A stretch of 64,000 bases of DNA from Gemmata massiliana (GTDB lineage Bacteria > Planctomycetota > Planctomycetia > Gemmatales > Gemmataceae): NCBI GenBank assembly GCA_000531095.1, contig HG799475.1, positions 44,782 to 108,781 on the forward strand, read 5' to 3'. Position 1 is the first letter of the stretch. Every line of letters starts with the position of its first letter. The notes beneath the pieces are model-generated. The model ran no database searches. It was not told the origin of the DNA and saw only the letters and a list, made by a program, of their open reading frames with translations. This document shows positions 53,123-61,064 of the stretch, one piece after another. A program made the position numbers and the translations under genes.

Positions 53123-54367
53123 TCACGGGCGCCCGGCGCGGGCCTTCGAGCCGATGCACCACAGGCTCGTCGCCGAGCGGACGAACAGGTGCCCGTCCGA
53201 CACAGCCGGCGTCGCGTGGCACTCCTCGCCCAGCGCGTTCTTCGTGACCAGTTCGTACTCCTCGTCGGGCTTCAGGATGTACGTGGTGCCGTCGTCCGCG
53301 AGGCAGTAGATCAGGTCGTTGATGAGGAGCGGCGAGGCGTGGTGCAGGCGCGAGCCGAGGCGCTCGGACCAGAGTTTCTTACCCGTTTTCGCTTCGAGTA
53401 GCGTTGCGATCCCGGAATCCGACAGCACGAACAGGTGTTTCCCAAACGCGAGCGGCGACGGAACGTAGGACGCGACCTTCGTGTCGGACCACTTGGTGTG
53501 TGATTTGGTGACGTTGCCCGTTCCGGTCGGGTCGAGGGCGACGAGCGTGTTGTTGGGGCTGGTGCCGGTCGCAAAGACCAGCCCTTCGGTGAACGCGACC
53601 GTCGCGACGAACTTGTCCGTCGTGCTGTCCGCGATCCAGAGCTGTTTACCGGTGGTCGGCTCGAACGCGGCGACCGACTTGCTCCCGGCCAACACCAGTT
53701 GCAACTTTCCGCGAACTTCCACGAACAGCGGCACGCTGAATGACCGCACGCGGTTGGGGCGGTTGATCTTCCACTTCGTTGCGCCGGTCGTTTTGTCGAG
53801 CGCAGCTACGAACGCATCGCCGTCCGAGTCACCATTAACGATCACGAGGTCGCCGAACAGCACCGGCGTTCCGCAAAACCCGTGAACGGAATCGAACCCG
53901 TCGAACGACTTCAACCAGACCTGTTTTCCGGCAAACGAATAGCACGCGACCGCGACCTTTCCAGCGTCCAAAAACGTGACCCACACGTGGGTGCCGTCAC
54001 TCGCGGGCGTGGAACTGGCGGGCGTGTTGTTCTTGTGCATCTTCTCGGCCGTGGCACTCAGCACGCTCTGCTTCCAGAGCAACTTGCCGTCTTTACGGTC
54101 GAAGCACAGGAGTAAGCGATCGGTCGTTGATGACTCGAACGACGTGAGGAACACGCGCCCGTTGGAAACGACGGGCGACGAGTGCCCAGTACCGGGAACG
54201 TCCACCTTCCAAACGATGTTCTCGGTTGCGCTCCACTTGGTAGGGATCGCGGCGTCGGTCACGATGCCGTCGCCCTTTGGCCCGCGCCACACCGGCCAGT
54301 CGGCGGCACGGAGGGAGGGTGCGAATATGAGCCCGAGCAAGAAGCAGCAAATCGGAGCGCGGAGCAT
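53123..54367 (-). CDS. PQQ-binding-like beta-propeller protein (exported)
   Basis: A 414-residue protein with a signal peptide (APICCFLLGLIFAPSLRAADWP). The repeats follow the PQQ-like pattern: VWRGPKGDG, LLCFDRKDGKLLWKQSV, VAALDKTTGATKWKINRP, SVAAFEPTTGKQLW, ATLLEAKTGKKLW. It starts next to the stop codon of the cytochrome-WD40 gene (54367 is shared), so it is very probably co-transcribed. It is the last gene of the run starting near 64 kb. Whether it binds a quinone or only forms a scaffold cannot be seen. Confidence 0.88.
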   Translation of the reverse strand: MLRAPICCFLLGLIFAPSLRAADWPVWRGPKGDGIVTDAAIPTKWSATENIVWKVDVPGTGHSSPVVSNGRVFLTSFESSTTDRLLLCFDRKDGKLLWKQSVLSATAEKMHKNNTPASSTPASDGTHVWVTFLDAGKVAVACYSFAGKQVWLKSFDGFDSVHGFCGTPVLFGDLVIVNGDSDGDAFVAALDKTTGATKWKINRPNRVRSFSVPLFVEVRGKLQLVLAGSKSVAAFEPTTGKQLWIADSTTDKFVATVAFTEGLVFATGTSPNNTLVALDPTGTGNVTKSHTKWSDTKVASYVPSPLAFGKHLFVLSDSGIATLLEAKTGKKLWSERLGSRLHHASPLLINDLIYCLADDGTTYILKPDEEYELVTKNALGEECHATPAVSDGHLFVRSATSLWCIGSKARAGRP

Positions 54368-56042
54368 TATTTCTTCTCCTCCGCCTTCGTGATTGCCGCT
54401 TCCACTTCGACCACTTCGGCCTTCATCGCGAGTGCGGCCTCGCAGAGTTGCAGGTAAGCCTTTGCGAGCGCCGGGTTCTTCGGGCTGCGAGCGGCTTCGT
54501 CCTTGAGCTTCTCCGCCGCGTCCTCCACGGCCTTAAGTGCGGTTCGTTTGCGAGCCAGTTCCGCCTGAAGATTCGCGGGTGCAGTCGACGGGATGACCGG
54601 AGTAGTCGGTCGAACGGCCGCGACGGGCAAGTTCGGCGTCGGCACTGGGATTGCTGCCAGCGCTGAGGGTTTCGTTTCGACCGGCAGAGCGAGTTTCACG
54701 CCCGTTCCGCCCGCGACCGGCCACGTCCGAACCGCACCGGCCCAGTCACCGGACAGGACCGTCTTCGCGTCCGCGGTGAACGCGACTTTCAGTACCGCGT
54801 CGTCCGCGGGACCGAACTCGGCCGCGCGCTTCCCCTTCTCGTCCCAGAGTTTCACGCGCCCGTCACGCCCCGCGGTGACGATCGCGCCGGAAGCGTGGAA
54901 CGCGACGTCTGCCGCCCCGCCCTCGTGTGCCTCCCACTTCGTGATCTCGGTCCCTGTGTGCATGTTCCAAACGCGCACCGTCTGGTCGTCGCTACTCGTC
55001 GCGAGCGCGTCCGAGTCCGCGCGCCAGGCGATCCCCGTCACGCCCTTCGTGTGCCCGCGGAGCGTGTAGAACTCCTTGCCGGACTTCGTTTCCCACACGT
55101 ACAGTCCGCCGAACCGGTCGCCGGCTGCGACGAGCAGCCCCTCCGGGCTGAACCCGACCGACAGCACCCAACTTCGTATAATGTATGCGAAACGTAGTGG
55201 ACGATCTTGCCGTCGGGTACGGAAACCACCTTCACGATGCGGTTGGGACCGCCGAACACGACGCGGGATTTGTCCGCCGAGATGTCGGCCGCAAGAACCG
55301 CGTCGTTCTCGTCGGCAACCGCGAACTGACGCTTCCACGAAGCGACGTCGTACCCGACCACGGCACCCGATTGCCCGCCGACACCGCCCGCAGCGAGCAG
55401 CATCTTTCCGTCACGTGAGAAGCGAAGAACGTGAACCTCGCCTTCTGGAAACGCGAGCGCGCCGAGCGATTTACCGCTGGGCAATTCGTAGAGCAGGATT
55501 TGCTTCTTCCCGGGAACCGCAACAATCGGCGCGCTGGGGCTGACCGCAAGTGCGGTCACCGGCGTGAGTCGCGCCAGGGTCGCGACTTTGCCGAGGCCGT
55601 CAAGATTTTTGGGCGCAGGAGTAGGCGTGGCCTTCGTAGAAGCCGCTCCGCCCACCTTCTCAACCAGTCCGCCCTCGATCCACTTGCGGAGCATGTCGAT
55701 TTCGGTTTGAGGGATCTTGGGGCTGTTCGGCGGCATCTTCGGGTCTTCGAGGTGCGCCGTCATCGTGTAGAGCGGGCTGGAATCCGGCTTCCCCTCAACA
55801 ACTGCCCGGCCCGACACCCCGCCGAGCATCACCGCCGCGTAGCTCGACAGGTCGAGTTCCCCTCGCGGGCGCTCCGCGTTGTGGCACTTGCCGCACCGCT
55901 TCGCGAGGATCGGGCGCACCTGACCGTCGAACGTGACTTTCGCGCCCTCGACCTTCTCGTCGGCCCGGACCGGCGGTGCCGCGAGGGACGAGAAGTGAAT
56001 CACGAGCGCGAGTAACAAGAACACACACGGTCGCAGCGTCAC
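54367..56042 (-). CDS. Planctomycete-type cytochrome-c domain plus WD40 protein, interrupted by loxP-like linker
   Basis: The N-terminal signal peptide (TLRPCVFLLLALVIHFSSLAAPPVRA) leads to ILAKRCGKCHNAERPRGELDLSSY, a single haem-c site with the PSCyt1-type sequence, and then MPPNSPKIPQTEIDMLRKWIEGG. WD40 repeats follow. The frame changes at about 55170-55190, where GKIVHYVSHT should run into WVLSVGFSPEGLLVAAGDRFGGLYVWE. Exactly there lie 19 bases of loxP. The second part contains five more WD40-like blades and a lysine/glutamate helical end. The start is a GTG at 56042; a GTG at 56099 is possible. It follows the DUF1549/1553 gene closely. Confidence 0.85.
55170..55188. other. 19-nt loxP identity (probable library-linker remnant)
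   Basis: AACTTCGTATAATGTATGC is identical to 11 bases of one loxP arm plus the full 8-base spacer. The other arm is missing; GAAACG follows. It coincides with a reading-frame break inside a conserved WD40 gene. Cre-lox circularisation linkers in mate-pair libraries carry this sequence, so the simplest source is untrimmed linker. Confidence 0.9.
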
Positions 56043-56103
56043 AGCGGTGATCCTCGAGGTTGGCGAAATAAACCCAGCCGGCCTTATCGCTCGTCCCACT
56101 GCA

Positions 56104-58515
56104 TCAGCGGTTGAAAATGAACTCGTTCGTGTTCAGCAGCGCCCAGAACAGGTCTTCGAGCGCCTCCTTCTTGTCGGTCGCTTGTTCGAGCCGGGGCGCG
56201 AGTTTGGCGACTTCGTTCGCGGTGGGCTTGCGGCCCAAACACCGCAGGTACAGTTCCTCGGCCACCGCTGCCGGTTCTTTCTTGGCGAGCAATCCCTCCA
56301 CCACTTTCCCCTCACCGATCTTGCCCGTGGTGGTTTCGCCGTTGAGCAGGTGGAGCGCTTGCGAGAGCGTCGGCGTGGTCTTCACCTCACACGTGCAGGC
56401 GGTGGCGCGGGTGGACCGGCCGAACGTGGTGAGGAAGTAGTTCGGGGTGCGACCGTCCGGGAGGTGAACCGCCCGCCCGCCGAGCGGCAGGTTGGGGAAC
56501 CGGTTCGCCGTCTCGGTTACCTGAGTGATGCAGTCGAGAAGCACTTCGGCGCGCATCCGGCGCACAGTTTGGCGCGCGAAGTTTCGCTCGTCCCACTCGT
56601 TCGTCGGGTTCCGCTTTGTGGAGAGCTGGTACGTGCGACTGAGGCAGATGTCGCGTGCGAGCTTCTTCACATCGAACTTGTATTCGGACGCTTTCTTGCC
56701 GAGCGCATCGAGCAGCTCCGGGTTGCTCGCGGGGTTCGACACGCGGACGTCGTCCACCGCGTCCACGATGCCCTTCCCGAAGAAGTGAGCCCAAACGGTG
56801 TTGCTGATGTTCCGGGCGAACGCCGCATTATCGGTGCTGGTCAGCCAGTCCGCGAGGGCCGCCCGGTAGTCCCGGCCCGGCTTCAATTCGGGCGCGTCAC
56901 CGCCCAGGAACTTCGGCTTCACGAGCCGGTCCCCGAGCGGGTGCCGCATCTCGCCCGAGCCGGCGTTGAATACGGTGAGTTCGCGCGGGTCTTGTGCGTT
57001 CTTGTACCCGACCTGACTGAAGAACGCGGCGAACCCGTAGTAGTCGTCCATCGTCCAGCGGTCGAACGGGTGGTTGTGGCACTGGGCGCACTGAATGCGC
57101 GTCCCGAGGAACACCTGCGAGACGTTCTCGGCCAGCAGTTGCGGGGTGGTTTCCGTTTGGAAGTAGTTGACGGCCGGGTTCTCGAACGTCCCGCCGACGG
57201 CCGGGAGCAGTTCGCGCACGATCTGGTCGATTGTCGCGCCGCCACGGACCTTGTCACGGAGCCACTTGTCGTAGAGTTGCAGCCCCTTCTGGCTGATGCC
57301 GTTGATCGTGCGGATCTGGAGCATCTCGGCCCACTTCATCACCCAGATGTCCCGGAACTCGTCGCGTGCGAGGAGCGCGTCGACCAGTTTCTCGCGCTTC
57401 TTCGCGTCCGGATCGGCGAGGAACTTTTCGCGCTCCGCGAGTGTGGGGAGTAAGCCCAACAGATCGATGTACACGCGGCGCAGGAACACTTCGTCGGTAC
57501 AGCACGTCGGAGGGGACGACGTGGAGGCGGTTGAGTTTCGCGTGGACGTGCGTGTCGATGTAGTTGAACGCCGGCGTCTTCGGGTCGGTGAACTCGGTGC
57601 CGGGCCGAACGATCGACGGCGCTCCCCTCCGTGAACTGGTCGAACCGCGCGAGAATGAACGCCTCACCCGGCCCGGTCCCCGTAATCACGCCGTACATCG
57701 GAAACGGTCGCGGCCGCGTCGTTGTTACCGACGAACACGGTGAACCGAGTCACGTCGCGGTCGGTACCGTCGTCGTACTTGGCGCGAACCACGAGGCGCT
57801 GGGCCTCGCCCTTCGTCGCGAACACCGCCTGCTTCGGGAACACCTCGATGCTCACCGGCTTGGCCGTACTCTTCGGGTCTTTGGGGGCGCCGCCTTCGAG
57901 CCAGCGCAACAGCAACAGGTAGTTTTCGCTACCCGGTTCGATGCGCGTTCCGCCCGTGTGCGGAACCTTCCCGATGGCCTTGTTGATGAGCAGGCAATCG
58001 TCCGGTGTCGCGAGATTAACTCGGCGCCCGCCCATCTCACGGGTGATGCGGAAGTGGTCGCCCTCGGGGTCGTACCCGAACAGCCCCAACCGGAACCCGT
58101 CCTTCCCGGACGCGGAGCCGTGGCACTTGCCCGTGTTGCAGCCCACTTTTGTGAGGACCGGCATCACGTCCGTGCGGAATCGGAGTGCTTCTGCTTCTTT
58201 TGCCTTCGTCACAGTTACGGGCACCTTCGCGGAGAACGTGCCGAACGCGACGCTGAGCGTTGCTGCTCCATCTGTAACCGGTGCGAGAAAGGCGTTCGTG
58301 ATCGTAGCGACCGGCTTATCGAGCGCGAACGTGGCACTGGCGGTCACGTCCTTTGTGCTGCCGTCGGCGAACTCCGCCTGCACGACCACCCCCTGGCGGT
58401 CGCGTGCCGAAGTCAGGTCGACCCGATCCGGCGCAACGGTGATCCGCACCGGCTCCGCTGCGCGGACGGGAGCGACAACGGCTACCAACACAGCAGCGAT
58501 CAGCGCAAAACGCAT
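56104..58515 (-). CDS. DUF1549/DUF1553 protein with N-terminal Ig-like domain and haem-c motif (three frame breaks)
   Basis: About 800 residues if read through. The signal peptide is RFALIAAVLVAVVAPVRAAE. An Ig-like beta domain comes next, then VGCNTGKCHGSASGKDGFRLGLFGYDP with its CxxCH site. The DUF1549 part (DEVFLRRVYIDLLGLLP, FLGTRIQCAQCHNHPFDRWTMDDYYGF) and DUF1553 part (NAAFARNISNTVWAHFFGKGIVDAVDD, DLFWALLNTNEFIFNR) complete the usual family order. Between 57490 and 57700 the frame changes three times (near 57512-57515, 57611-57627 and 57691-57700), mostly beside runs of four G or C. The flanking parts are well conserved, so sequencing error is more likely than decay. Confidence 0.83.
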
Positions 58516-58592
58516 AGGGAAGGTCCTCGGGTGTACTTCTTCGCCCGTTTCTTTGTTTCTCGCTCGCGGAGGCAATATCGCACTCCGCGGGG

Positions 58593-61064
58593 TTACTTCT
58601 TCTTTTGCTCCAGCCGCAGAGCATCGAGCGGGCTGAGCGGTTTGCCGGTCGCGTCGGTCTTCACCGCGCCGGGTGCGTCCACCTTCAGCGCCCCGTCGCG
58701 CCCGAGCCGGTAGACGATCTTCTGCCCGCCCAAAGTGCCGGTCAGTTCGCACACGAGTGATGCGTGCGCGCCGGGGGGCGTGGTTGCGTCGATGGCGACG
58801 GTGAACTCGACCTGTTTCGTGTCGGCCTGAACCTGAACTTCTTTTGAAGTCGCACGCGGGGGAAGCCCGTCGAGCTTCGCCGTGAAATTACCCTTCAGCG
58901 GCGGGCCGTCGAACTTGCAGACCACCTTGACCGACTTGCCCTGTTCCCCCGCGGCGAGGTCGAATTTACCCTTCAGCGGCGCTTCGGCGAGTTTCACCGC
59001 GTGCATCTCGGACGCGACCGGGGGCATCCCTTCGGGAGACCGACGCGACCGCCGACCACCGCCGCCTCCACTCGCACCCATGCCGCCCATTCCCATCGGT
59101 GCGGCGAGCGGGTCACGCGCCGCGCGCCCCGGGCGAGCAACGTTCGCCTCCGCGATGAGCTTCCAGTCACCCAGCTCGGCGTCCTTACTCGCGACGAGCG
59201 TGACAACGGCTTCCGTTTTGTTTGCGGGAATGAGAACCGCGGTCGGGACTTCGACACCCGGCGGCAGACAGGGGAACGTCACTTCGATCGGTTCGGTGAA
59301 ATCCTTGGCTCGGTTGACCTGCACCGTCACATCGAGTGTCCCGTCGGCGGCGATGGGCGCAACCGGCGGAACAATGCTGACGGACAGCGGAGATTCTTCC
59401 ACAACCACGATCGCGAGTTTCGCAAGCGCAACCGAGTGGAGCGCGGAATCACCTGGCCCGCGAACGAGCGTGACTTGCTGTGTGAACCCACCGGTGATCG
59501 GCGATTTTGGCTCCCCGCCGGTTCCGGTCAGGTCGATCAGATTCCCGCCGAGGGGTGCATCCGCAGCGGCCTCGAACACAACCGGCAGGAGATACTCGTC
59601 CGCGGGAATTGGACTCAGCCCGACCTTCACCCCCGTGGGCAGCGCGCTTGTGGCGAGCGTCACAGGGCCGGTATACCCGTCGCGCCGAACCGCGAGGTAG
59701 GCGGTAACGCGGTTCCCACGCGGCACAGTGATGACGTTCCGGTTCTGGGTCTTCCGGTTGCGTTCGGGCAGAAACACCGCGAGGCCCATTTGAGGGCGGG
59801 CGAGTTCGATGCGGTAGATGAACGCCGGGCCGCCCTGGTTCCGCTTGTCGGTGACGCGGACGAAGTATTCGCCGTCCGCGGGGATCGCGACCTGGAGTCG
59901 GCTGTCGTGCGTTTCGTCGTCGTCGTTGGAACCGAGGAGTTCTCCTCCAGCATCGAGTACCGCAACGACCGTATCGAGCGGCGCCCCGACGCGGAACGCG
60001 AACGCCTGCACATCAATCACGTCGCCCTTCTTAGCGCGGAACCGGAAGTGGTCCGCGTCGCCGGGCTTTTCGATGATCCCGTTGAACGCGACCGGCCACT
60101 CCACCGCGACGTTCGCTTGTTTGAGTTCGTTGTTCGGTTCGACCTCGTTCACGTTCGGGAACGCCGACACGCGGAACGGGTTGGGGGTCGGCGCGTTGCC
60201 GTTGAGATCGGAGGGATAGAACTCGAACGGGGTGCCGACCTTCGGAAGTTTGACCCGCTCGGATCGCTCACCCGTGGCGTCACCGAACAGCTTCACCGCG
60301 ACTTCGGTTCCGGCTTGCCCGCCGGCGGGGAAGACCGCGCCGGGCCGCGTAAAGGTGCCGATGTGGAGTACGTAACGGTGCGTGTCGCCGCCACCGAAAT
60401 TCGTGTCGTGGACCTGAACCATATAGGTGCCGTCGCTCGGCGCGAGGATCGTCACGAACGGGTCTTGGCGGAACAGTGGGGTGTCGTCGACCGCGGCCAG
60501 TTGCTTCCCGTCCGGCCCGAATACCGCGATGGCGGTGTCGTTGAGTTCGCCACCCATCCGGACGCCTTCGATCTCGGCCGCGAGCCGCTGCCCCTTCTTC
60601 AGCGCGACCGCGAAGTAATCGGACCCGCCCGATTCGACCACGCCCGCGACGCTCACGTTCAGCGGAACCGATTGGGCCTGTTCGCGCGTGTCGTTGGGCT
60701 CCTTCTCGGGCACGACGGGGAACGGCGAGACGCGGAACGTGCGGAGCTCGGACACGCCGCCTTTGGTGCGTAACCGGAACGGGTATTCGCCGAGCTTGCA
60801 GCCCGCTCCGGACTTCAGCGTCGCGGTCACTTCGTTCTCGCCCCTCGCGGTCAGCTTCGTGCAGACCACACCGGGGCCGTACATCATCAGTTCTTGCGGA
60901 TCGTTTAGTCGCGCCCCGGTAATGGTCAGCGTGAACTCGGTCCCGCGCTGACCGACGCCGGGCGCGACGCCTTCGGTGGTCGGGGGAGCAGAAAAGGAAT
61001 AGCCACCAAAAGGCACAACCAGCGCAAACACAGACAAGAGGACGCGGACCGAGGTGCGATTCAT
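58593..61064 (-). CDS. Exported protein with pre-peptidase C-terminal (PPC) domains
   Basis: An 823-residue protein. The signal peptide is MNRTSVRVLLSVFALVVPFGGYSFSA. An IPT-like stretch (GVGQRGTEFTLTITGARL) leads into two PPC-type domains marked by PEKEPNDTREQAQSVPLNVSVAGVVESGGSDYFAVALKKG and NEVEPNNELKQANVAVEWPVAFNGIIEKPGDADHFRFRAKKG. Several Ig-like beta domains follow. It lies between the DUF1501 and DUF1549/1553 genes on the same strand, the normal place for such proteins in planctomycete operons. A binding role outside the cell is likely; there is no enzymatic motif. Confidence 0.87.
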   Translation of the reverse strand: MNRTSVRVLLSVFALVVPFGGYSFSAPPTTEGVAPGVGQRGTEFTLTITGARLNDPQELMMYGPGVVCTKLTARGENEVTATLKSGAGCKLGEYPFRLRTKGGVSELRTFRVSPFPVVPEKEPNDTREQAQSVPLNVSVAGVVESGGSDYFAVALKKGQRLAAEIEGVRMGGELNDTAIAVFGPDGKQLAAVDDTPLFRQDPFVTILAPSDGTYMVQVHDTNFGGGDTHRYVLHIGTFTRPGAVFPAGGQAGTEVAVKLFGDATGERSERVKLPKVGTPFEFYPSDLNGNAPTPNPFRVSAFPNVNEVEPNNELKQANVAVEWPVAFNGIIEKPGDADHFRFRAKKGDVIDVQAFAFRVGAPLDTVVAVLDAGGELLGSNDDDETHDSRLQVAIPADGEYFVRVTDKRNQGGPAFIYRIELARPQMGLAVFLPERNRKTQNRNVITVPRGNRVTAYLAVRRDGYTGPVTLATSALPTGVKVGLSPIPADEYLLPVVFEAAADAPLGGNLIDLTGTGGEPKSPITGGFTQQVTLVRGPGDSALHSVALAKLAIVVVEESPLSVSIVPPVAPIAADGTLDVTVQVNRAKDFTEPIEVTFPCLPPGVEVPTAVLIPANKTEAVVTLVASKDAELGDWKLIAEANVARPGRAARDPLAAPMGMGGMGASGGGGGRRSRRSPEGMPPVASEMHAVKLAEAPLKGKFDLAAGEQGKSVKVVCKFDGPPLKGNFTAKLDGLPPRATSKEVQVQADTKQVEFTVAIDATTPPGAHASLVCELTGTLGGQKIVYRLGRDGALKVDAPGAVKTDATGKPLSPLDALRLEQKKK

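Follow-up and report, generated by a model that had tools for sequence, protein, structure and literature searches.

In the genome assembly of Gemmata massiliana, a gene for a planctomycete cytochrome with WD40 repeats changes frame at a stretch of 19 nucleotides that resembles loxP. Is this stretch a native Cre target, is the gene a pseudogene with a fortuitous resemblance to loxP, or did the sequence come from the laboratory? A preliminary description had favored the last possibility, as half a loxP site from a mate-pair linker. We followed it up in the window (by which we mean the whole 64,000-nucleotide stretch of contig HG799475.1 that was analyzed) and in the complete assembly, which consists of 22 contigs and 9,269,192 bases. 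Almost certainly, the 19 bases are what remains of a synthetic loxP linker used in a Roche 454 Titanium paired-end library.

A linker remnant in a cytochrome-WD40 gene

The resemblance to loxP is exact, as had been claimed. The stretch, AACTTCGTATAATGTATGC on the forward strand, equals bases 3-21 of loxP, covering 11 of the 13 bases of one arm and all 8 bases of the spacer. It is also identical, without interruption, to bases 7-25 of a longer sequence, the 42-nt loxP linker TCGTATAACTTCGTATAATGTATGCTATACGAAGTTATTACG, which we take to be that of the 454 Titanium paired-end kit. This agrees with the 42-bp loxP linkers described for the kit (PMC6992861), and the sequence itself appears as a mate-pair adapter in the list of PMC5199103. 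Given its base composition, the window should contain about 4 × 10^-7 exact matches of 19 bases with the linker, wherever in the linker they fall, so that chance is indeed as negligible as had been supposed. The GC content of the stretch is 32%, against 65% for the window, and outside this site the window shares no 11-mer with the linker.

What follows the match is less simple. The second arm had been described as missing, and this is right insofar as the window contains no full loxP site (an 8-bp spacer flanked by two inverted 13-bp arms), even when up to 3 mismatches are allowed. Part of the arm is there, however: local alignment at the site spans linker bases 7-35, and the ten positions after the exact match agree with linker bases 26-35 in register at seven places, which taken alone is weak. 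The extra A at 55196 is absent from all seven relatives that we compared and is the letter that the linker has at that place. We suppose that these ten positions are a consensus in which linker and native reads are mixed.

The product of the gene has a PSCyt1 domain (Pfam, E 7e-12) followed by WD40 repeats (E 6e-23). Upstream of the linker the correct frame is that of the first of the two overlapping open reading frames listed in Table 1, and downstream of it that of the second. Seven relatives of the same genus, with 70-92% DNA identity over the query, contain the stretch without the linker and have the frame open, and the remainder of the gene in the window shows no decay. The two frames and the seven intact orthologues thus corroborate the claim that the frame changes at the match, and the comparison with related Gemmataceae, which had been proposed as a check, gives the same answer seven times out of seven.

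Relative to these orthologues the window has a net gain of 5 nt, four of them within the linker stretch and the fifth at 55196. Fifteen foreign nucleotides occupy the place of 11 native ones. Because the relatives share the outermost bases of the 19 nt (GCA and the final T, on the reverse strand), only a core of 15 of these nucleotides is strictly foreign. Judging from the alignment, then, the linker letters appear to overwrite native sequence, and the event was no clean insertion. Read in frame, the linker is CAT ACA TTA TAC GAA GTT, that is HTLYEV. One detail of the preliminary description has to be given up here: the "HT" that was assigned to a damaged WD40 motif is translated linker, and at this position the proteins of the relatives read VHTFRKPTDWVLSVGFSPEG or something close to it. 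The gene is an intact one that has been falsely broken by a library artifact.

Table 1. Features at the site, in positions of the window
Feature	Positions	Strand	Basis or remark
Planctomycete cytochrome (PSCyt1) and WD40 gene, falsely split	54367-56099	-	one open frame in relatives
False ORF 1, 353 aa: N-terminal part correct, tail past the linker out of frame	55038-56099	-	
False ORF 2, 323 aa: head out of frame, C-terminal part correct from WVLSVGFSPEG on	54367-55338	-	
454 Titanium paired-end loxP linker remnant, bases 7-25 exact	55170-55188	+	sequence match
Strictly foreign core, 15 nt in place of 11 native nt in relatives	55171-55185	+	alignment with seven orthologues
Probable blend of native sequence and second arm, including the extra A at 55196	55189-55198	+	7 of 10 positions equal linker bases 26-35 in register

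Copies in the rest of the assembly

A search of the whole assembly for loxP and linker sequences, also proposed at the outset, gave a clear result. The genome contains 24 perfect loxP sequences and 22 more with 1-3 mismatches, many of them within the exact 42-nt linker, while the reversed pattern of loxP, used as a control, has no match in the same genome. Exact single arms number 96, and the 15-nt core is present in 48 exact copies (the site in the window included). When single-arm and core matches are merged, 71 distinct sites on 14 contigs result, partial ones counted. Most copies are bounded by TCGT and TACG, the two ends of the linker itself. An N gap lies at most 100 nt away at 22 of 74 scored places (these were taken from the stretches retrieved, a few of them being additional partial places, the weakest of which could be due to chance), and some copies stand directly at N runs.

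The copies are not all cut alike. At least 11 of them stop after base 38 of the linker and continue with GC in place of TACG, and about as many others begin exactly at linker base 6. These fixed cut points look like an effect of trimming or of a linker variant.

If the copies derive from circularized fragments, a read across the junction would begin in the downstream end of the fragment, cross the linker and continue into the upstream start of the fragment. Circularization therefore places the true home of the left flank downstream, or that of the right flank upstream, on the same strand and at a distance of about one fragment length. We took the exact 18-mers adjoining the linker and sought them in the surrounding sequence of roughly 12 kb. 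A second copy of a flank was found in the predicted direction at nine sites, in the opposite direction, at that range, at none and inverted at none; the distances are 1466, 1818, 1991, 2038, 2208, 2435, 2448, 2454 and 4011 bases. Seven further sites with a same-strand repeat at less than 1 kb were left out of this count. The pattern of the nine duplications is characteristic of a mate-pair library whose fragments measured roughly 2-3 kb; no natural lox element known to us would give such a circular geometry. Along with the 71 remnants and the intact relatives, this 9:0:0 distribution upholds the original suggestion that a mate-pair linker was left in the assembly, with the amendment that at our site it was apparently overlaid and not cleanly inserted. 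The geometry is seen at other sites only, since 55170-55188 has neither a flank duplication nor an N gap. Hence it would seem that the consensus took up only linker letters there, and no distant mate.

These observations bear on every other reading of the locus. Some seventy copies dispersed over 14 contigs are what one might expect of a mobile or regulatory repeat, and the copy in the WD40 gene could then be a degenerate member of a native family of lox-like elements or Cre targets. But the copies show the exact 42 nt of the kit, non-lox ends included, many of them adjoin N gaps, and their flank duplications follow mate-pair geometry. Furthermore, a search of 94 other Gemmataceae genomes that allowed up to 3 mismatches found no loxP, so that the conservation to be expected of a native site is not seen in the family. 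The preliminary description was right to consider a native Cre target far less likely, and we regard a native element as very improbable. The more specific idea of a natural dispersed lox-like planctomycete repeat used by an unknown tyrosine recombinase deserves still less credence. The chance of a genuine frameshifted pseudogene with a coincidental likeness to loxP is just as slight as that of such a repeat: the frame does shift in the assembled sequence, but a coincidence would have to produce a 19-mer match of the rarity given above, in a gene that is intact in seven relatives and free of decay elsewhere, and in an assembly that holds about 70 other linker remnants. An engineered strain with loxP scars of Cre-lox mutagenesis is no better placed, for although loxP belongs to the laboratory, mutagenesis does not leave a pattern of about 70 scattered copies with mate-pair duplications and, often, an assembly gap alongside, and the isolate of the matching paper came from a hospital water network.

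Probable source of the linker and consequences for the genome

A library that could have supplied the linker is on record. For G. massiliana IIL30, 454 Titanium reads of two kinds, shotgun and 3-kb paired-end, were assembled with Newbler 2.8 into 22 scaffolds of 9,249,437 bp (PMC4672568). The paper names BioProject PRJEB621 for these reads; the type strain is DSM 26013. The assembly that we analyzed agrees with the published one in the number of scaffolds and closely in size, although it is about 20 kb longer, and is presumably the same one. In 454 Titanium paired-end libraries, the 42-bp linkers are ligated to the fragments and circles are formed via Cre (PMC6992861); a Roche 454 paired-end kit with Cre-lox has also been described elsewhere (PMC3253782).

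A likely course of events can be suggested. Sheared genomic fragments would receive loxP linkers, Cre would close them into circles, and the circles, sheared anew, would yield reads of the form end-linker-start, which the assembler is meant to split at the linker. If the linker in a read were shortened by the end of the read, or contained errors, it might go unrecognized, and its letters could enter the consensus of a contig. At the site in the window, the linker tail of one or a few reads would have been laid over the native WD40 gene. If this tail prevailed in the consensus over about 30 bases, the net gain of 5 nt and the false frameshift would be the result. The literature that we searched holds no paper on loxP linker contamination of this particular genome, an absence that proves little; on 454 loxP linker contamination of public genomes in general, only method papers were found.

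The neighboring gene (reverse strand, about 56104-58752) also has irregularities. It contains three single-base insertions, at 57502, 57614 and 57695, which lie within 194 nt, are absent from two close relatives and jointly restore the frame. None of them lengthens a run of equal bases. Low coverage in this same assembly has probably led to errors in the consensus here.

Whatever the exact course of events was, the feature at 55170-55188 is a data error, neither a Cre target nor a pseudogene, and has no biological meaning. Its importance lies in what it says about the assembly, which has about 70 corrupted places where genes may be falsely broken. At nine linker sites, a flank that has a second copy 1.5-4.0 kb away adjoins the linker. 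Such flank copies imply wrong joins or duplications in parts of the assembly, which goes beyond mere interruption; at some linker places, pieces that belong kilobases apart have been joined or repeated. Counts of pseudogenes, claims of split genes or gene fusions, and reports of native loxP should all be checked when they come from this assembly.

Other public records and known systems

The same linker is present in other public species-representative genomes. Perfect loxP occurs in at least 102 stretches of species-representative genomes. Both linker ends, TCGT and TACG, are found on 102 of the 130 loxP copies among the matches listed, and therefore most of these listed copies are residues of the same kind. 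At least about 19 other species-representative genomes are involved, mostly with linker ends. Examples among the matches listed are Legionella tunisiensis LegM, Candidatus Paracaedibacter symbiosus PRA9, Sediminibacterium salmoneum NBRC 103935 and a Rickettsia MAG. Two Escherichia records, whose loxP copies share another context, may contain natural sites like that of P1. A contig of Aeromicrobium and a plasmid of Alicyclobacillus have in common a loxP context without the linker, CGCATCGAAT...TAGCGATGAG, which is perhaps vector sequence. In IMG/VR, four stretches contain the complete 42-nt linker, and in one of these it occurs twice, 98 nt apart, and a third copy begins.

Among known systems, phage P1 loxP, the target of Cre, agrees with the site over 11 of the 13 bases of one arm and over the entire 8-bp spacer. 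The site in the window differs from it in the second arm, where the partial agreement in register is mixed with native sequence, and in its origin, which is a library kit. The 454 Titanium linker is the closer counterpart. It shares 19 contiguous bases with the site, occurs in full 42-nt copies elsewhere in the assembly, and is accompanied at other copies by circular mate-pair geometry; the difference is that the site is exact only over bases 7-25 and then passes into a blend with native bases. Untrimmed linker or adapter contamination in public assemblies involves the same loxP linker with TCGT and TACG ends; at the site in the window there is, in addition, a partial and easily missed overlay inside a gene.
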